A DNA stretch of 64,000 bases from Saccharothrix sp. NRRL B-16314 (GTDB lineage Bacteria > Actinomycetota > Actinomycetes > Mycobacteriales > Pseudonocardiaceae). Each line of letters opens with the position of its first letter. Position 1 is the first letter of the stretch. This document shows, one piece after another, positions 11,768-51,746 of this stretch. The stretch covers positions 124,001-188,000 of the forward strand of contig NZ_JNXC01000005.1 of the NCBI RefSeq assembly GCF_000716595.1, read 5' to 3'. Under the pieces are notes generated by a model. It was not told the DNA's origin. It saw only the letters and a program-made list of their open reading frames with translations, and made no database searches. The position numbers and the translations under genes were made by a program.

Positions 11768-13492
<1,725 letters not shown>

Positions 13493-14151: not shown

Positions 14152-14182
14152 TACCCCGTGACCCACCCACGATGGGACTGTG

Positions 14183-14446
14183 ATGACAGGCGACGGAAAC
14201 TTGACGGACAGGCGGTTGCTCAGCCCACAAGAGTTGGCCGAGTACACCGGAGTTCCGCTGGCGACCATCTACCGGTGGAACAGCAAGGGATCAGGGCCGC
14301 GACGGCTTCGGGTCGGAGTCCACGTCCGATACCGCCTGAGCGATGTCGAGGCATGGCTCGAAGCTCAGGAATCCGGCCAGGGACGCCCCGCACCCACCCT
14401 CATGGCCGACGTATCGGCCAACAGCGGTGACGGCCATGCCGCGTGA
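14183..14446 (+). CDS. excisionase-like HTH protein (first of two)
   Basis: An 87-residue protein with a MerR-type HTH_17 domain: LLSPQELAEYTGVPLATIYRWN is the winged-helix start and SGPRRLRVGVHVRYRLSDVEAWL the wing and end. This is the standard layout of AICE and phage excisionase/RDF proteins. ATG 14183 follows an in-frame GTG at 14180. It is the first gene of the rightward operon and overlaps the next gene by 11 bp. Confidence 0.88.
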   Translation: MTGDGNLTDRRLLSPQELAEYTGVPLATIYRWNSKGSGPRRLRVGVHVRYRLSDVEAWLEAQESGQGRPAPTLMADVSANSGDGHAA

Positions 14447-14749: not shown

Positions 14750-15331
14750 ATGACCAACCATCCTCGGCAGGGACAGTCTAACCCGTACGTGCGTGTCGTC
14801 ATCCGCCTCACCGAAGGGGACGCCGTCCGCGCCTTTACCCAGTCGTGGACCGACGCGGCTAGCGGCAACGGGCCGCATCTCGGCACACCCGAGTGGGCCG
14901 CACTTCCCGACGACCACCCGGACAAGCTCGCGGCAGTCGGGTTCGCGGTACGCCGATGGTTCGAGGCGAACACCTTGGAAGCGCAGGCAGAGCGCGCGGA
15001 GGTCGCCGAGTACCTCGACCGGACCGCCGAGAAGCAGGCCACGGTGGTCATGTCCGAGATGTGGTGGGACCGGGGCCGAACGTGCGTGACGTGCCGCGAC
15101 GAACGCGGGCAACTGCTCGGCGCTGCGTGCCCCCGGCTGAAGACCGACCGGCGTCACGGCTACCGCGCCGACTTCCCGACGTTCGCCGAGCTTCAGCGTC
15201 GCCGCGCTGTGGTTCCACCCACCCGCGTCATCGACCCCGACGCCGTAGCCCGGTGGGTCGCCACCGGCAGCAGCAACCCCCAGACCACCCCGGCCGCGGC
15301 GCGGCGGGCAGGACGGAGCACTGCGGCGTGA
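14750..15331 (+). CDS. hypothetical AICE protein with CxxC pair
   Basis: A 193-residue protein starting at ATG 14750 with GAAAGG nine bases upstream. The N-terminal half is helical and acidic (residues 10-95). The middle carries a CVTC pair followed by ERGQLLGAACPRLKTDRRHG, a three-cysteine arrangement that also appears in the integrase N terminus (CRDANGREVGATCPRLRRAD). The resemblance is visible by eye and may be a shared DNA- or metal-binding module. It overlaps the DUF3987 gene by 4 bp (GTGA), so it belongs to the replication operon. No known family recognised. Confidence 0.75.
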   Translation: MTNHPRQGQSNPYVRVVIRLTEGDAVRAFTQSWTDAASGNGPHLGTPEWAALPDDHPDKLAAVGFAVRRWFEANTLEAQAERAEVAEYLDRTAEKQATVVMSEMWWDRGRTCVTCRDERGQLLGAACPRLKTDRRHGYRADFPTFAELQRRRAVVPPTRVIDPDAVARWVATGSSNPQTTPAAARRAGRSTAA

Positions 15332-16809
15332 CTACGTTCAACCCAACCGACCAGTGGGAACCCCCCGAGGAACCACTAGGCGGTTGGACTGCGGAGGAAG
15401 CCGCCGAGATGCGCCCAGCGCACCTCGCGGTGGTCCCCGCACTCGAAACCGGGAGCTCTCTGGCCGGTCCGGCCCTGAACCTCCCCGACGAGTTCTGGAC
15501 AGCGCGGCCTGTCCTCCGCCACATCCGCGACGCTGCCCGGTCGCGGTTCGCCAGCCCCGACGCCGTTCTCGGTGCCGTGCTCGCACGGCAGAGCGCCTAC
15601 CTGAACCCCGGCGACAATGTGGACCTGTACAGCACCGGCAACGGTGCCCCGATGACGGTGTTCGCGATCATCCTCGGACACCCCGGCACCGGCAAGGGAC
15701 AGGCAGTCCGGTGCGCCACCGACCTGCTTACCGTGCCCAAGCACCTCACAGACGAGTTCCGCGCCCGGTCCCTCGGGTCCGGTGAAGGCATGATCGAGGC
15801 GTACTACGGGATGGCCGACGACATCGGACCGAAGGGCGAGCCGGTCAAAGTCCGGGCACAGGTCCGCTCAAACGTCCTGTTCGAGCTGGACGAAGGCGAG
15901 TCCCTGCTCAAGGTCATCACCGGGCGCAGCGGAACCACCGTGGCCCAGATGATCCGATCGGCGTGGTCCGGCGAGAACCTCGGGCAGGCCAACGCCAGCG
16001 CCGAGCGGGACCGGCAACTACTGGCCGGCGGCTACTCGATGGGGCTGGTCATCGGGTTCCAGCCGGACACCATCGGACCCTTGTTCGACCCCAAGCAGGT
16101 CGGTGGAGGCACCCCACACCGGTTCTTGTTCTGCTCCGCACTCGACCCCGACGCACCCGAGGAACTACCCCCGTGGCCGGGACCTCTGAACAGCACACCA
16201 ACCAACAGCGGCCCGCGGCCAGATGCCCCGCCTGTCCAGCACGTCCTCAAGGACCGCGCCATCCGTGCGGAGATCATCGCGACCCGACGCGCGGTGCTCA
16301 CCGGGCACACCACCCTCAGCGAGCAGGACACCCACGCCACTCAGTTCCGGGGCCGCATCGCCGCGCACCTCGCCCGGTGGGACGGGCGCCAGGACGTCAC
16401 CGCTGAGGATTGGGAGTTGGCCGGGATGGTCATGGGAACCTCGGCCGCCGTCCGTGACTCCGCCATCGCCCACGGCCGCAGCCTTGCGGCACGAGAGGCA
16501 GAGGAACGCGCACAACGCGTTGTGTCGGTCGGCGTCCGCACTGCCGACGCCGTCGCCGAGAACACCGAGAAGCGCGAACAGGTCGCGTTCACCAACTGCG
16601 TATCGGTCCTGGTGCGCCGTGTCGCCCGCGACGCGAACGTGCCCGCGGTCGAGCACCGCCAGCTCAAGGACGCGTCCGGGCGATACCGCGCCCACTTCTC
16701 CGCCGCGCTCGATTACGCCGTCGACCGCGGCTACCTCGTCCCGGAGAAGGCCGGTCGCGGCAACCGCTACCGCGTCGGTCCGAACGCCCCGGAGGTGCTG
16801 GATGCATAA
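15328..16809 (+). CDS. DUF3987 primase/helicase-like protein
   Basis: A 493-residue protein starting at GTG 15328. Walker A (ILGHPGTGKGQAVRCATDLL, about residue 115) and a Walker B-like NVLFELDEGESLLKVI mark a P-loop ATPase, followed by FQPDTIGPLFDPKQVGGGTPHR, typical of DUF3987 proteins found with mobile-element replication genes. The C terminus ends in a winged-helix-like segment (LVPEKAGRGNRYRVGP). No primase active site or rolling-circle tyrosine motif is visible. It is the best candidate for the replication protein of the excised element. Its stop directly abuts the inverted iteron array. Confidence 0.85.
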   Translation: MTTFNPTDQWEPPEEPLGGWTAEEAAEMRPAHLAVVPALETGSSLAGPALNLPDEFWTARPVLRHIRDAARSRFASPDAVLGAVLARQSAYLNPGDNVDLYSTGNGAPMTVFAIILGHPGTGKGQAVRCATDLLTVPKHLTDEFRARSLGSGEGMIEAYYGMADDIGPKGEPVKVRAQVRSNVLFELDEGESLLKVITGRSGTTVAQMIRSAWSGENLGQANASAERDRQLLAGGYSMGLVIGFQPDTIGPLFDPKQVGGGTPHRFLFCSALDPDAPEELPPWPGPLNSTPTNSGPRPDAPPVQHVLKDRAIRAEIIATRRAVLTGHTTLSEQDTHATQFRGRIAAHLARWDGRQDVTAEDWELAGMVMGTSAAVRDSAIAHGRSLAAREAEERAQRVVSVGVRTADAVAENTEKREQVAFTNCVSVLVRRVARDANVPAVEHRQLKDASGRYRAHFSAALDYAVDRGYLVPEKAGRGNRYRVGPNAPEVLDA

Positions 16810-16982
16810 GGGGGAACGGGGGAACGGGGGGAACGGCTCATCGCTCGCGCGGCGGCTACCGCCCGTAACCGCCGACAGAGCGAAACCCTCTGACCTGCAT
16901 AAATACATTCGCCATCTGACTCCACGTGAACGCGCGAGAGACAGAGCGACCCAACCCGTTCCCCCCGTTCCCCCGTTCCCCC
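16810..16982. repeat. 27-bp perfect inverted repeat of GGGGGAAC iterons; candidate origin
   Basis: The left arm (16810-16836) is three tandem GGGGGAAC-type units; the right arm (16956-16982) is its exact reverse complement over 27 bp, 119 bp away. Nested inside is a second inverted pair, CTCGCGCG with CGCGCGAG (about 16844-16851 and 16931-16938). The centre holds GCATAAATACATTCGCC, an AT-rich island in otherwise very GC-rich DNA. It lies directly after the DUF3987 helicase-like gene. The layout suits a replication origin or a protein-loading site; a promoter with a long hairpin leader is the alternative. Confidence 0.7.
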
Positions 16983-17008
16983 TTTCCTCACACTTCGGAG
17001 AAGCGCCC

Positions 17009-17965
17009 ATGAGACTGCTCGAAAAGATCACCGCAGCAATGCCCGGCGTCCGCGAAGCCGAGACCGGCCTGGCCATCATCAAGGAGCACCTCGCAGACCT
17101 CGCCGCCCGAACGAAGCGCCGCAACCTCGACACCGCACTACTGACCGACATCACCGCCGCAGCCTGCGCCGGCGGACCGCTTCCCGACGACCTCGGCCGC
17201 CGCGCCCACGAGAACGCCAACCACGGCGAGATCCTCAAGGCCGAGGAGTCGGTGCTCGTGTGGGCTCAAGCCGCCCTGGAGAACAGGCGTGAACTCGCCG
17301 TACAAGACGGTGCCGACGACGGACTCGACACCCTCCACGACCACCTTGGAGAACTCATCGACGAAGCCCGCACGCTCCTGACCCACCTCGACGGCATCCA
17401 CAGCGCACAAGACGCCATCACCAGCGGCCCCGCCGCAGCATCGGCCTGGGCCAGTCTCGGGCCGCTGGCCGAGCGCTACCAGGAGATCCGTGATGCGCAA
17501 GTCACCCTGTCTCAGAAGCGGTGCGGCACGGACACCCAGTGGATTGAACTACCCGCCAGCGGGCAACAGGTGTCCCTGCGCAGCGTGCTGAACCTCGTTG
17601 GCGAGATCGCCAACTACGCCGAGCTGCACCCCGACTGGCGCCGCACCATCCAGGACTTGCCCAAGGACAAGCGCGACCCGCAGCCGTTCGTCTTCACCGA
17701 CCCCATCGGCCACCTGCGAAGCCTGCTCGCCAACCCCGCGGTCGAACTGTGGGTGCCCACCATCGGGCAGGCCGCCGAGAAGTACGAGCGCGCCCGCGTG
17801 ATCGCCGCCGAACACCAAGCAGCGATCGACAAGCGGGAAGACCGAAAGCCCTACCCGACGCCCATCATGCTGGACAACCTGGCCAGCCAGATCCGCGCCC
17901 ACCGAACCTCTGCCGAACTCCAGCGCGCCGCCCGCATCATGAACGGAGGCCACCGTGAGAAGTGA
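17009..17965 (+). CDS. hypothetical AICE protein (318 aa)
   Basis: A 318-residue, soluble, mainly helical protein starting at ATG 17009 with CGGAG eight bases upstream. Its N-terminal ~100 residues (MRLLEKITAAMPGVREAETGL and on) resemble the long helical proteins found in phage and ICE replication or packaging modules, but I recognise no family. It shows no catalytic motif, membrane segment or signal. It overlaps the following 59-aa gene by 11 bp. It is the first gene after the inverted iteron array, so it may be under control of that region. Confidence 0.75.
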   Translation: MRLLEKITAAMPGVREAETGLAIIKEHLADLAARTKRRNLDTALLTDITAAACAGGPLPDDLGRRAHENANHGEILKAEESVLVWAQAALENRRELAVQDGADDGLDTLHDHLGELIDEARTLLTHLDGIHSAQDAITSGPAAASAWASLGPLAERYQEIRDAQVTLSQKRCGTDTQWIELPASGQQVSLRSVLNLVGEIANYAELHPDWRRTIQDLPKDKRDPQPFVFTDPIGHLRSLLANPAVELWVPTIGQAAEKYERARVIAAEHQAAIDKREDRKPYPTPIMLDNLASQIRAHRTSAELQRAARIMNGGHREK

Positions 17966-18317: not shown

Positions 18318-18824
18318 ATGGGTAAGAGAGGGCCTGCCAGGCGGCCTACCAGCCTGGCCATCCTGCACGGGGAGCGTTCCTCGCGGCTGAACCTGAATGA
18401 GCCGAAGCCCAGCATGGTCGAGGTGGTCCCGCCGGCGTGGTTGGACGAGCGGGCGCTGGCGGTCTGGGAGCGGTTGGCGCCGGACATGGTGGCCAAGGGC
18501 GTGTTGACGGCGTGGGATGTGGACGCGTTCGCCCAGCTGTGCACGGTGGTGGTCATCGCCAGGGAAGCGTTGGCGGACATCGCGGAGAACGGGTCGAGCT
18601 GCAAGACGGTGGTCCGGGAGTTGTCGGACGGGACGTTGATCTACGACCTGCGCAAGAACCCGTCCTGGCAGATCGCGCGGGAGTCGATGGGGCTCATCGT
18701 CAGTCTCGGCGGCCGGTTCGGCTTGAACCCGTCCGACAGGTCCGGGTTGACGATGGACTCGGGATTTGGCGACAAGGATGACGACTTGCTCTCCCCGCAC
18801 AACCCGGGCCGGCTTCTGAGCTGA
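18318..18824 (+). CDS. orphan P27-family phage terminase small subunit
   Basis: A 168-residue protein with the P27 TerS pattern: basic start GKRGPARRPTSLAILHGERS, then the LNLNEPKP and PPAWLDERALAVWERLAPDM segments, and a C-terminal helix NPSWQIARESMGLIVSLGGRFGL near the end. TerS recognises pac/cos DNA and hands it to the large subunit. ATG 18318 has a perfect AGGAGG eight bases upstream. No large terminase, portal or capsid gene is present in the element. An isolated TerS in a mobile island recalls phage-inducible islands, which use one to redirect helper-phage packaging; here the role is open. Confidence 0.85.
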   Translation: MGKRGPARRPTSLAILHGERSSRLNLNEPKPSMVEVVPPAWLDERALAVWERLAPDMVAKGVLTAWDVDAFAQLCTVVVIAREALADIAENGSSCKTVVRELSDGTLIYDLRKNPSWQIARESMGLIVSLGGRFGLNPSDRSGLTMDSGFGDKDDDLLSPHNPGRLLS

Positions 18825-19802: not shown

Positions 19803-21935
19803 TCAGTAGCGGGTGATGGCGGTCTTCACGGCGTCGATCGAGACGACCGTGACCGGTTGCGGGGACCCGTTGAGTCGTTGGCGCGCGGGGTTGGGGCGTT
19901 GGACGCCGGCCGCGCGCAGTGCCTCGCCGAACCGCTTGGCGTCCCACCCGATGCGGTCGGCGAGCTCGGCGACCGGGACCAGGCCGTGCTCCTGGTCCTC
20001 GATGACGTCGACCAGCAGCGCCAGCACCTCGGGCATCTCGAGGTCGTCGACGATCTCGGCGTCGACCACCTCGGCCACCGGGGCCGACGCGGCTGCTTCC
20101 TGGTCGATGAGGTCGGCGACCTCGGGCGGCAGTTCACCGAGCACGGTGTCCCCGACCGCGTCGCCGGTGAGGGTGCCCGCGGCCTCACGCAGCGCCCTGC
20201 CGCGCTCGCACGCAGCCCGGATCTCGGCGATGCCGAGCAGGTCCGTCGACACCGTGACGGCGTCACCGGCGGACAGGTCCGACTCGCCATCGGCGCCGAG
20301 CAGCAGCCCGACGCCCTTGTGCGCCTTGAGCAGCTTGGAGGCGTCCATGCCGGCCTTGTAGGTGCCGGCACCGAGGATGGTCTCCGACGCCTGCCACGTC
20401 ATGACCTTGAGAGCGAAGCGGGTGCCGAGCTGGCCGCGGAGCTTGTCCGGCAGAACCTTGCCGTCCGGCTTCTGCGTGGCCAGGACCAGCGAGTACCCGG
20501 CGGCCGGGCCGGTCTTGGCGATGAACGTCAGCAGGTCGCAGATCCGCTGCCCGATGCGCTTGCCCTTCGGCTGGTCTGGGTCGAGCGGCGTGTCGTTCTC
20601 CAGGTAGTTCTGCACCTCGTCCACGGCGATCACGGTCAACGGCATCCCGTGCGCGGGGTCGCGGGTGATCTCCGGTGTCACCTTCGACTCGGGGCACAGG
20701 TCGTCGTTCATGTCGGCGAGTCGCCCGAAACGGTCCTCGACGTCCGCGGCGGCCTCTTCGAGCACGGCGACCAGGCGCAGCGCCGACGCGGTACGGGCGT
20801 CGCGCACGAACCGGTGCGCGACCCGCTCGAACGGCCGGAAGTCCTTGCCGCCCTTGCCGTCCGCCACGATCAACCGCACGTACGGGTCCAGTGCCGCCGC
20901 GGTGACCGGGATGCGCGCGGCGTACGTCTTGCCCATGCGCGGGATGGCGCCGACCAGCAGCGACGTCCACACCACCGGCACGTCGACCCGCTCCCCGCGT
21001 GCCGTGCGGCCGAACGGCACCGCCCGCCACAAGTCCCACTCGGGGGCGTCGGCCAGCGGGGAGGACACGGGCGGCTTGGCGTAGGGGTCGGAGTGGCCGA
21101 TCCACACCGAGATGCGCCCGGCGTGGCCCTGGTCCCCGCGGACGCGTTCGAGGATGAGCCGCACCTCGTCCACCGCCAGCGCCGACGCCAGCGCCTCGCG
21201 CTTGGCGACGACGTCGGACGCCTTCCGCGACGGCGGCAGGTCCAACACCATCGACCAGCCGGACGGGTCGTTGCGGGGCCGCTCCACCATGAGCAGGCCC
21301 TCGGCCTTGCCGATCGCGCCGGCCGCCCGGAACGCCTCGACCAGGTTGTTGCCGTCCATCAGCATGGCCAGCGACCGGGCGCCGCCGAGCGAGGCCTGAC
21401 GGCCCGGTGAGCCGTCCCGACGCCGTCCGACAACGGCGAGTGCCACCGTGGCAGTGCCACCGACGAGAGCGACTGTCAGCCCGCCGGACAGCCACCACCA
21501 CACGGTGCCGCCGACCCCGGTCATGCCGACCCCCGCGAGGCTGAGCAGCGCCCGACGCTTGCGGACCTCGGCGATGTCCTGCCACCTGGCAGCGAGGGTG
21601 TCAGTCGACTTGGCGGCGGCGTAGAAGTCGGCGACCCGCACCCACTGCCACCATGCCCGGCAGGCCACCACCGAACCGCGTACCACCGCACCGGGGTAGC
21701 GCAGTGGCATGACCGCGACGGCCCGCGTCATGTCGGCGACAGCGGCGTTGTCCTGCCACCGGGCGGGCAGCTTCGCGCGGGCGACCTCGACGGCCTTCCG
21801 TGCGCGTGACCGCTGGTACTCGTCCTCGGTGACCAGTTCGCCGGTGAGCACCTGGCGCACCGGTTCGGCGGCTGCGCCCGGCAGGTGCACGAGGTTGCTC
21901 GGCTGGTCGTCGTCACGGGGCAGGGGTTGTGCCAT
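19803..21935 (-). CDS. TraB/FtsK-SpoIIIE-like conjugal DNA translocase
   Basis: A 710-residue protein with an N-terminal membrane region (two hydrophobic stretches, about residues 130-170), then a FtsK/SpoIIIE motor. Walker A-like GAIPRMGKTYAARIPV, a Walker B in LTVIAVDEVQNYL and the ATQKPDGKVLPDKLRGQLGTRFALKV block are typical of TraB/TraSA proteins. The last ~70 residues form a winged-helix-like domain (LVPVAELADRIGWDAKRFGEALRAAG region), the part that recognises clt octamers in Streptomyces TraB. This is the only transfer motor in the element; it would move double-stranded DNA between mycelia. Confidence 0.9.
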   Translation of the reverse strand: MAQPLPRDDDQPSNLVHLPGAAAEPVRQVLTGELVTEDEYQRSRARKAVEVARAKLPARWQDNAAVADMTRAVAVMPLRYPGAVVRGSVVACRAWWQWVRVADFYAAAKSTDTLAARWQDIAEVRKRRALLSLAGVGMTGVGGTVWWWLSGGLTVALVGGTATVALAVVGRRRDGSPGRQASLGGARSLAMLMDGNNLVEAFRAAGAIGKAEGLLMVERPRNDPSGWSMVLDLPPSRKASDVVAKREALASALAVDEVRLILERVRGDQGHAGRISVWIGHSDPYAKPPVSSPLADAPEWDLWRAVPFGRTARGERVDVPVVWTSLLVGAIPRMGKTYAARIPVTAAALDPYVRLIVADGKGGKDFRPFERVAHRFVRDARTASALRLVAVLEEAAADVEDRFGRLADMNDDLCPESKVTPEITRDPAHGMPLTVIAVDEVQNYLENDTPLDPDQPKGKRIGQRICDLLTFIAKTGPAAGYSLVLATQKPDGKVLPDKLRGQLGTRFALKVMTWQASETILGAGTYKAGMDASKLLKAHKGVGLLLGADGESDLSAGDAVTVSTDLLGIAEIRAACERGRALREAAGTLTGDAVGDTVLGELPPEVADLIDQEAAASAPVAEVVDAEIVDDLEMPEVLALLVDVIEDQEHGLVPVAELADRIGWDAKRFGEALRAAGVQRPNPARQRLNGSPQPVTVVSIDAVKTAITRY

Positions 21936-22246: not shown

Positions 22247-23302
22247 CTACGTGGTGACGGCCGGTCGGGGACCGTCGTCACCGGGGCCGGTAATGGCGCG
22301 GCACACGATCGCCGCGTGCTCGGCACGGCAGCGCAGGAACTTGCGCACCGCGGCCTGACTCGGCCGGTCCGGCAGGGCACCGGAGGCGATGGCGGCACGG
22401 ACACGCGCGACGTGACCCGCGATCCGTTCCGCGATCTCCACCGGCACCCCGTCGAGGAGCGTTTCCGCACTTCCCGGCCCATACCCGGCGCTACCCAGGT
22501 ACTCGGCGACCTCGGCCGCCAGGGCGTCGCCGAGCGCCGTGTCAACCTCGGTCACCGGAAGGCCGGGAACGATCGCGGGCACCAGCCGGGAACGACCCCA
22601 CCGGCGCCGGTAGGCCACCAGGCCGGGCCGGTGCACAAGGGTGGCGGTGCCGTCCGGCGCGAGCTCCGCGACCGCCTGGCCCAGCGCCGCGCGGCGGACC
22701 GCGAGCACCTTCCGGGCGGCCTGCCGGTCCAGCCGGGAAGCGTCCCGCTCGGCACGGGTACGGCGGGTACGGGCCGGCGCGGCGGTCACCAGCTGGTGCA
22801 CCACGACACCGCCGACCGACACCAGCGCCATCACCACGCCGTACGCCACGGTCGAGCCGTGCACGAAGTTCAGGACGGCAGCCACCGCGGCGAACACCCA
22901 CGTCCCGACGTGCAGCCACCCGACCGGGCGACCCGCGCGGCGGGCCATCGGCACGGCGAACGCGAACATCCACATCGCGCCCTCGGAGAACAGCGGCAAC
23001 AGCGTGCCCACCGGCCCGAACACCTCACGGCCGTAGGCGGCCATCGCCGTCCACGCCAGCACCGCCGGAACCACGATCACCGGCACGAACAACAGGTTCA
23101 GGGTGTTCGCCCGGACCCATCCGGACAGCACGGCCCGACGCTCGGCGCGACGCTGTGCCGCCGCGTCCCGCTCGGCCTGGCGGCGCTCGGCGTCGGCCTG
23201 CCGGTCGGCGCGACGCTGCTCGAACATCAACGCCTGATCGGCGCGGCGCTGCTCCGCAGCCGCCACCCGGTCGGCACGCCGGTCCTCCGCCCACCCGCTC
23301 AC
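22247..23302 (-). CDS. SpdB-like integral membrane protein (putative spread protein)
   Basis: A 351-residue protein with an N-terminal arginine/glutamine-rich coiled region (ADRQADAERRQAERDAAAQR), four hydrophobic helices (about residues 60-160) and a charged C-terminal cytoplasmic part. This matches the Spd proteins of Streptomyces plasmids, which help spread the element along septated mycelium after primary transfer. The start is GTG 23302, overlapping the stop of the upstream gene by 4 bp (GTGA). Open frame continues upstream but is the shadow of the preceding genes. Confidence 0.8.
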   Translation of the reverse strand: MSGWAEDRRADRVAAAEQRRADQALMFEQRRADRQADAERRQAERDAAAQRRAERRAVLSGWVRANTLNLLFVPVIVVPAVLAWTAMAAYGREVFGPVGTLLPLFSEGAMWMFAFAVPMARRAGRPVGWLHVGTWVFAAVAAVLNFVHGSTVAYGVVMALVSVGGVVVHQLVTAAPARTRRTRAERDASRLDRQAARKVLAVRRAALGQAVAELAPDGTATLVHRPGLVAYRRRWGRSRLVPAIVPGLPVTEVDTALGDALAAEVAEYLGSAGYGPGSAETLLDGVPVEIAERIAGHVARVRAAIASGALPDRPSQAAVRKFLRCRAEHAAIVCRAITGPGDDGPRPAVTT

Positions 23303-23616
23303 CGGACACCCCCGGCGGTGTCCGCGGACATCCGCTGTTCCCAGGAACGCAGCGACGCCCGCGCGTCGGCCGCCCGCTGCTCGTGCAGCCGCGCGGCGTC
23401 GTACGCGGCCGACCACAGCACGTGGTGCATCGCGGACCCCACCGGCGTCCCCGCGCCGATCTCGTTCCACAACGCGGCCAACTCGGTCTCGACCTCGGCA
23501 AGCCGGCGGTAGTAGTCGCACCACTCCCGCGCGGTGGTCGTCGACACGCCGCGCAGCGCGGCACTCCGGTCCTCTGCCGCACGCACCCGGTCCAGGATCG
23601 CTTTCCACTGGATCAC
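23299..23616 (-). CDS. hypothetical helical protein (105 aa)
   Basis: A 105-residue protein starting at GTG 23616, coupled by GTGA overlaps to both neighbours. It is predicted helical (IQWKAILDRVRAAEDRSAAL, then VETELAALWNEIGAGTPVGS) with no membrane segment or motif. Its place inside the spread/transfer operon suggests a role with the Spd-like membrane protein. Confidence 0.72.
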   Translation of the reverse strand: MIQWKAILDRVRAAEDRSAALRGVSTTTAREWCDYYRRLAEVETELAALWNEIGAGTPVGSAMHHVLWSAAYDAARLHEQRAADARASLRSWEQRMSADTAGGVR

Positions 23617-23828
23617 CGGACACCGCCCGAGGTGGTCGCCGGCGCGGTGGACGCGGTGTGCACCGACAGGCGCGCGGTGTCGCCGGCGTCGGCCAGGCGC
23701 TCGGCGACGTCGGCGACCAGCGCCGCGGCAAACACCACGATCCGGGCGCACAGCGTCAGCACGGTCACCACCGCGAACGCCACGGCCACCGGCAGCGGCA
23801 GCCTGCGCAGCGTGTTGAACGTGGTCAC
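23613..23828 (-). CDS. small membrane protein (71 aa)
   Basis: A 71-residue protein with one long hydrophobic helix pair (LPLPVAVAFAVVTVLTLCAR, then IVVFAAALVADVAERLADAG). It starts at GTG 23828 with GGGAGGA six bases upstream and ends overlapping the next gene's GTG. Small membrane proteins next to SpdB are usual in AICE spread modules. A structured leader (23829-23911) precedes it. Confidence 0.72.
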   Translation of the reverse strand: MTTFNTLRRLPLPVAVAFAVVTVLTLCARIVVFAAALVADVAERLADAGDTARLSVHTASTAPATTSGGVR

Positions 23829-25052: not shown

Positions 25053-25096
25053 ACTCTTAATCAGCGGGTTCGGGGTTCGAGTCCCTGGCGGCGCAC
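25053..25096 (+). repeat. attR core (44-bp direct repeat with attL)
   Basis: Identical over 44 bp to 11798-11841, the 3' half of tRNA-Lys. It lacks the 5' half and the CCA, so it is not a tRNA gene. The original tRNA-Lys terminator (25103-25141) follows directly, showing that this side faces the old chromosomal downstream flank. Confidence 0.95.
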
Positions 25097-51613: not shown

Positions 51614-51746
51614 TCCCGAACGTTGAATTCACCCGTCCCGAACGTAGGACACGCCCGTCGCGAACGTAGGACTCACGCACCCCCGCGTGAGTCCTACGTT
51701 CGCGTCCCGTGAGTCCTACGTTCGCGACCCCCGAATTCAACGCTCA
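51614..51746. repeat. palindromic cluster of GAACGTAGGACTCAC repeats, site 1
   Basis: Units of the form CGAACGTAGGACTCACG occur twice forward and twice in reverse orientation, flanked by the related unit GAACGTTGAATTCAC and its inverse GAATTCAACG. The whole reads as one long imperfect hairpin between gatD and the convergent monooxygenase gene, where it may end transcription. A second, half-sized cluster is at 57298-57385. Confidence 0.85.

Follow-up and report, generated by a model that had tools for sequence, protein, structure and literature searches.

The helicases of staphylococcal pathogenicity islands (SaPIs) recognize, through their C-terminal domain, iterons located just downstream of their own genes (PMC7581432, citing Ubeda 2007). 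In the staphylococcal cassette chromosome mec (SCCmec), the isolated C-terminal domain of the helicase Cch2 binds the region after its gene, this binding needs direct repeats (AAGTG iterons), and the helicase activity itself requires the iteron (PMC7581432). In the archaeal plasmid pRN1, a ~100-bp stem-loop immediately downstream of ORF904, the primase-polymerase (prim-pol)/helicase gene, is required, and in phage P4 the winged helix of the primase-helicase alpha protein binds the repeats of the origin (PMC4234260). As for DUF3987 proteins, those of the PrimQH and all3500 primase families have been predicted to be new helicases of mobile elements, and origin recognition has been suggested as a possible role for the winged helix at the C-terminus of the PrimQH family (PMC5862659). 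DUF3987 is also part of the search model used for the Vibrio PICMI satellites (PMC10803314). Here we describe a related locus in a 64,000-nucleotide stretch of the genome of Saccharothrix sp. NRRL B-16314 (contig NZ_JNXC01000005.1, positions 124,001 to 188,000; hereafter the window, whose coordinates we use throughout). It consists of the gene of a 493-aa DUF3987 helicase, the proposed initiator (15328..16809, + strand), followed by a mirrored array of short repeats (16808..16984) which, on the evidence of sequence comparison, is very probably the replication origin of the 13.3-kb tRNA-Lys-integrated element that carries both, with replication presumably initiated by the adjacent helicase.

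The array is an inverted repeat, without a strand of its own, made of two 29-bp arms (16808-16836 and 16956-16984) that are 100% complementary and separated by a core of 119 bp. An earlier note on this DNA had recognized the perfect complementarity but gave the arms as 27 bp long. It had also described three tandem units on the left that are exactly mirrored on the right, and their coordinates are confirmed: GGGGGAAC occurs at 16810-16817, 16818-16825, and 16827-16834 (16810..16834, + strand), with spacings of 8 and 9 bp, and GTTCCCCC at 16958-16965, 16967-16974, and 16975-16982 (16958..16982, - strand). The array directly follows the DUF3987 gene, as that note had said, the gene ending at 16809 and the left arm starting at 16808. 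Such a structure is far beyond chance in the window, where it is the longest perfect inverted repeat found among those with arms within 500 bp (29 bp vs 21 for the runner-up) and where the 16-mer GGGGGAACGGGGGAAC, with two mismatches at most, has four matches, all in the array, compared with a mean of 0.13 in shuffled sequences (n = 100). Throughout the genome of the strain (8.9 Mb, 273 contigs) the exact 16-mer is confined to the array, once per arm, and one additional site has it with one mismatch. Perfect terminal-type repeats on 177 bp might evoke a miniature transposon-like insertion; we rejected this interpretation, which we regard as extremely improbable, since several copies are not found in the genome (there is no second copy of the repeat pair when the repeat string is searched with up to one mismatch), no target duplication is visible by eye, and relatives have different sequences at the same position. 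The exact 16-mer occurs in 6 of 390 genomes of the same family, including this one; the stretches fetched around it in the five others (1.5 kb on each side) contain no DUF3987 match, so the 16-mer string alone is not a marker.

The listed fold matches of the window helicase are MCM proteins, indicative of an MCM-like AAA+ core, and a winged helix is predicted at the C-terminus (residues ~421-483), with a recognition helix predicted to begin at residue 451. This protein thus combines a helicase-type ATPase and a predicted C-terminal DNA-binding winged helix with multiple short iterons directly downstream of its gene, as in the SaPI/SCCmec kind of system. It is akin to the SaPI Rep/ori pair in having downstream iterons and a helicase that is here the proposed initiator, SaPI Rep appearing to bind as two hexamers, but the SaPI helicases belong to the DUF927 (related to SaPIbov1 Rep) and Primase_Cterm/D5-like (SaPI5 Rep) families instead of DUF3987, act in other hosts, and are not described with any link between a residue and the iterons in the sections of the source that concern us (PMC7581432). 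SaPI Rep/Cch proteins were absent among the PDB sequence matches and fold matches listed for the window protein, an absence that does not argue against common descent. Cch2 likewise has putative origin repeats after its gene, and its C-terminal domain reads them, as proposed for the window helicase, but it has only three 5-nt iterons, and the same sections describe no mirrored two-cluster layout for it (PMC7581432). The pRN1 system is similar in its inverted structure 3' of the gene, conserved in structure while poorly in sequence, and in the C-terminal winged helix of ORF904, but according to its authors it has no iteron structure, and its helicase, of superfamily 3, is fused to a primase (PMC4234260). 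The P4 alpha protein also associates a winged helix with origin repeats (PMC4234260) but is fused to a bacterial Toprim-type primase. In the window helicase DUF3987 is the sole Pfam match, and the same protein matches neither the Toprim primase of the P4 type nor the archaeo-eukaryotic primase (AEP) prim-pol domain (PF09250) of the pRN1 type, which, unlike here, is listed for many of its relatives. The earlier note knew of no described element of this type; because iterons immediately follow the helicase genes of SaPIs and SCCmec (PMC7581432) and pRN1 has a stem-loop after its replication gene, we consider that the kind was already known. Nevertheless, the portion of PMC5862659 considered, on PrimQH and all3500 proteins, does not contain the word ‘iteron’ (0 occurrences), and within the consulted parts of the open-licence literature on DUF3987, actinomycete elements, mycobacteriophage iterons, and SaPI/self-loading helicases we found no description of DUF3987 origins or of a rule linking a residue to iterons.

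Arrays beside DUF3987 genes are frequent in relatives. We scored an array when some 7-mer, on either strand, had at least five copies within the 500 bp surrounding the helicase gene's 3' end. A discovery search with the helicase in 390 same-family and 394 same-class genomes (the latter including some from the earlier group), with the addition of one plasmid, three phage/prophage records, and one genome contig, yielded 38 loci (own locus included) after dropping L013, the same as L012, and L041, cut by a contig end. An array was present at the 3' end in 25 of them, compared with 1/36 5' flanks and 0/38 gene interiors, and 25/38 beat dinucleotide shuffles at p 0.01. A first held-out set of 16 new loci, from 392 and 386 genomes that had partly been searched before (each locus counted once; one, L055, with a 3' region of just 233 bp), gave 14/16 at the 3' end vs 1/16 5' flanks and 1/16 interiors. 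The viral set, made of viral contigs (the best 80 of 108 relatives) and four phages, comprised 75 non-redundant loci out of 84 (cut-off of 90% identity), L066-L068 being left uncounted as their contigs were already represented by L069, L072, and L095; it gave 59/75 vs 2/75 5' flanks and 3/75 interiors. Two viral loci are not independent, the helicases of L088 and L071 being identical to those of L012 and L050, and excluding them leaves 58/73. Viral scans with single proteins retrieved no relative, the one scan of genome contigs yielded one, and 35 genomes from another family contained only loci that were already known. Altogether, the helicase 3' end carries an array in 98 of the 129 loci, own included, and such arrays adjoin the helicase gene in the genomes of the phages Tarzan, TinyDot, and GrandSlam.

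The earlier note had proposed to look for its 8-mer iteron pattern at similar genes; arrays do occur there, but their repeats differ between elements (GGTGGACA, GGGTGTAC, GGTAGTAC, TTGGTCG, CGTCCGAC, GTAGACA, and others; GGGGGAAC itself in L095 and GGGGGGAAC in L085). Thus, across the sequences compared, the repeat is not conserved but a two-cluster layout recurs. A usable consensus with at least four copies was available for 111 loci, 98 of them with a gap of at least 60 bp and 89 with at least two copies on each side. Over these 89 loci the median start-to-start gap is 131 bp, as in the window (131), a length partly selected for because the largest gap was chosen in each of the loci covered (89 of the 98 among 111). 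The orders ++-|+-- and +++|--- are common, the window having a clean +++|---, and the majority strands of the two clusters are opposite in 49 loci, tied in 30, and identical in 10. GC content is lower in the gap than outside in 86/89 loci (means 0.52 vs 0.66).

Evidence for recognition comes from the first residue of the predicted recognition helix. Repeat consensuses (at least four copies) from 125 of the 129 loci were classified as GGAC or GTAC (73 loci), GAAC (8), or neither (44), and the residue test was limited to the 73, some of the 44 being chance repeats. In the genome set (both genome sets together, 54 loci, including the three phage records and the plasmid), residue 451 is Ser or Gly in 18/20 GGAC loci and 0/10 GTAC loci (Fisher 2.2e-6). 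The rule was drawn from these loci and noted before the viral contigs were fetched, the exact alignment column being fixed after a listing of the loci had been seen; in the viral set, Ser/Gly occurs in 32/34 GGAC and 1/9 GTAC loci (Fisher 2.7e-6), or 32/33 and 1/9 without duplicates. When all helicase columns filled in at least 80% of the loci were scanned, 451 was the strongest in both the genome (z 5.6) and the viral set (z 7.9), and in the pooled scan it reached z 12.5 compared with 4.6 for the next column. Along a tree of the helicase core, 14 of 17 independent class-contrasting pairs were concordant, none discordant, and three uninformative (p 1.2e-4), which makes shared ancestry an unlikely cause of the association; some contrasting pairs are close in this tree (distances of 0.06 for L105/L107, 0.08 for L121/L123, and 0.2 for L046/L069). 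In the simplest reading, residue 451 would contact the variable base of the repeat. The comparison of these loci suggests that one amino acid helps to set which repeat the helicase recognizes. Since this residue tracks the repeat, the array is most likely recognized by the helicase encoded next to it.

Covariation indicates recognition, not purpose, and the helicase, or a helix-turn-helix (HTH) protein of the element, two HTH genes being present upstream, might bind the repeats to control its own operon instead of replication. We consider such an operator unlikely, as the array lies behind the gene, at its 3' end, as two clusters around an AT-richer core together with a helicase-type reader suit an origin better, and as the known systems of similar layout (SaPI, SCCmec) are origins or putative origins. 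The tracking of the repeat by a residue of a predicted DNA-binding domain also argues against the idea that the inverted repeat, lying between this gene and the following one, acts in RNA as a hairpin terminator, attenuator, or leader. Its transcript has a very strong predicted fold (single-strand fold z -8.9), and a GGAG resembling a ribosome-binding site can be seen by eye ahead of the ATG at 17009; however, the two clusters of relatives are often locally arranged (++-|+--) and do not form one long stem, the downstream gene is not shared among relatives, and in ten loci the reading frame enters or crosses the array. An RNA role therefore appears improbable.

A replication origin is best supported, as arrays are found at 98/129 helicase 3' ends, with varied repeats, a recurring two-cluster layout, and covariation with residue 451; the origin geometry invoked by the earlier note thus gains support from the relatives. 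From these data we infer how binding, ring assembly, melting, and the direction of replication might proceed. After excision, the DUF3987 protein, as an MCM-like AAA+ helicase, would bind the GGGGGAAC iterons via its C-terminal winged helix, each mirrored cluster would load one helicase ring, and the two rings would oppose each other over the ~130-bp core. The core would melt beside an AT-rich GCAGGTCAG motif and replication would then start, perhaps in both directions. Several observations weigh against this interpretation. No primase domain was matched in the window protein, so that priming would have to come from another protein. The core of the window array is only mildly AT-rich (GC 61% vs 69.5% for the element), and the AT-rich centre proposed in the earlier note is reduced to one 20-bp stretch at 40% GC, with no strong AT-rich island. 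The window combines Gly451 with a GAAC repeat, a class of 8 loci too small for the test. As for the relatives, 13/38, 2/16, and 16/75 fall below the array threshold in the three sets (some of them, e.g. L020 and L040, with four copies, whereas others, such as the cluster O phage Dylan, L048, show no visible array), and the clusters of the 10/89 loci mentioned above share their majority strand. Finally, in ten genome-set loci (L029, L032, L035, L037, L039, L044, L045, L059, L061, and L062) the frame stays open for 84-558 bp beyond the expected helicase end, and the array therefore seems to be partly or wholly within the helicase reading frame.

The core of the window contains a motif, AATGTATTTATGCAGGTCAGAG (16888..16909, - strand), composed of an AT-rich run followed by GCAGGTCAG; it includes GCATAAATAC, flagged in the earlier note. 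A minority of loci have GCAGGTCAG within or close to the core, in one orientation or the other and often after an AT-rich run. Exact CAGGTCAG is present in 27/128 3' regions vs 3/127 5' flanks in the three sets pooled: 11/38 in the discovery set (vs 1/36 5' flanks, 2/37 regions further downstream, and 0/38 genes), 2/15 in the held-out set (vs 1/16, 0/15, and 0/16), and 14/75 in the viral set (vs 1/75, 3/71, and 2/75). A core motif obtained by expectation maximization on the discovery set, with a score cut of 10 bits or more, was detected in 28/38 loci of that set, the same data used for the fit (controls 3/36, 2/38, and 7/38), and in only 5/16 of the held-out loci (controls 2/16, 2/16, and 1/15). 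In its exact form the motif therefore holds in the discovery and viral sets but is weak in the held-out one; that it serves as a melting, priming, or host-factor site can only be guessed. The nested inverted pair of the earlier note exists in the window (CTCGCGCG at 16844-16851 and CGCGCGAG at 16931-16938), but we rejected it as a paired family feature, the CTCGCGC..GCGCGAG pair occurring in 1/54 genome-set loci (that of the window) and 1/75 viral-set loci. Against this rejection, CGCGCGAG taken alone as an 8-mer is more frequent in viral-set 3' regions (17/75) than in their controls (4/75, 1/71, and 4/75).

The element is delimited by two identical 44-bp repeats, attL (11798..11841, + strand), which is the 3' part of a tRNA-Lys(CTT) gene (11768-11843), and attR at the far end (25053..25096, + strand). 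It encodes a tyrosine integrase (11774..13492, - strand; PF00589, 2.3e-21), an excisionase-like HTH protein (14180..14446, + strand; TIGR01764, 2.3e-9), and an FtsK/SpoIIIE-like (TraB-like) DNA translocase (19803..21935, - strand; phrog_1358, 7.5e-31) that matches the TraB model NF041214 far under its cut-off (4.3e-5) and has no Pfam match at 0.01. This combination of an integrase and an FtsK/SpoIIIE translocase, flanked by att repeats at a tRNA gene, gives it the appearance of an actinomycete integrative conjugative element (ICE). TraB proteins bind short tandem repeats, and the array might accordingly be the transfer site of this translocase. In an element of this type it might otherwise be a rolling-circle double-strand origin, some actinomycete ICEs encoding RepSA-type initiators (PMC3218068). 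Both appear very unlikely, as no nicking-type HUH/RepSA Rep family is among the matches of the ten element proteins scanned (part of the open reading frames) and such arrays also accompany the helicase gene in phages such as Tarzan, TinyDot, and GrandSlam. Replication modules of actinomycete ICEs are of RepSA, RepAM (DUF3631), or Prim-Pol types; in that survey, as far as considered here, RepSA has no Pfam model and the main text does not mention DUF3987 (PMC3218068). The ten scanned proteins have no match to PF12307 or PF09250 (RepAM/Prim-Pol types) either. The gene next to the array encodes a 318-aa protein without family match (17009..17965, + strand), which the earlier note had considered as a partner of the array; we rejected it as part of the origin module, a relative being present in 0/149 fetched loci (flanks mostly of 1.5-2.5 kb), and it probably lies outside this module. 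A P27-family small terminase (18318-18824; TIGR01558, 2e-13) is a stray phage packaging gene inside this conjugative-looking element. The proteins scanned, which cover part of the open reading frames, matched no large terminase or capsid family, and the gene may represent a trait of phage satellites or a relic. Elsewhere in the genome (L003, C9:100829-103844), another gene of the DUF2637-like kind, which shares 52% identity with that at 22247-23731, lies near a one-mismatch copy of the repeat, which suggests another related element. At 51657-51728 the window also contains GTCGCGAACGTAGGACTCACG, a perfect inverted repeat of 21 bp that is overlapped by another pairing of 20 bp.

Other observations concern the relatives. 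In Tarzan (L047, 5227-5499), TinyDot (L149, 3819-4169), and prophiGD12-2 (L049, 5224-5475), the annotation places small genes for a ‘hypothetical protein’ over the arrays; these may be spurious calls on top of origins. Nonomuraea plasmid III (L046, NZ_LT559120), a 59-kb circular molecule, carries dnaN, a DUF3987-like helicase gene with its array, and annotated P27 small and large terminases, and looks like a phage-plasmid. In another genome of the genus, the fetched stretch L005 contains, at 1501-1678, two exact tandem GGGGGAAC copies ~90 bp before a tRNA-Lys(TTT) gene (1603-1678), with no DUF3987 match.

The novel part of our results is a testable specificity rule linking residue 451 to the repeat. 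More generally, we think it likely that the DUF3987 helicases encoded by phages, prophages, plasmids, and integrative elements of actinobacteria define a large class of self-encoded origins, with two mirrored clusters and an AT-richer core 3' of the helicase gene, often including an AT-run and GCAGGTCAG, whose identity would switch between close relatives by paired changes of the iteron (GGAC to GTAC) and of residue 451 (Ser/Gly to other), making compatibility partly readable from sequence. If so, genes annotated as ‘DNA primase/polymerase’ or DUF3987 would gain a defined origin and mechanism, origins in phages and integrative elements could be located by a sequence rule, and natural pairs of close helicases that seem to read different repeats would be available for testing origin recognition and replicon divergence.
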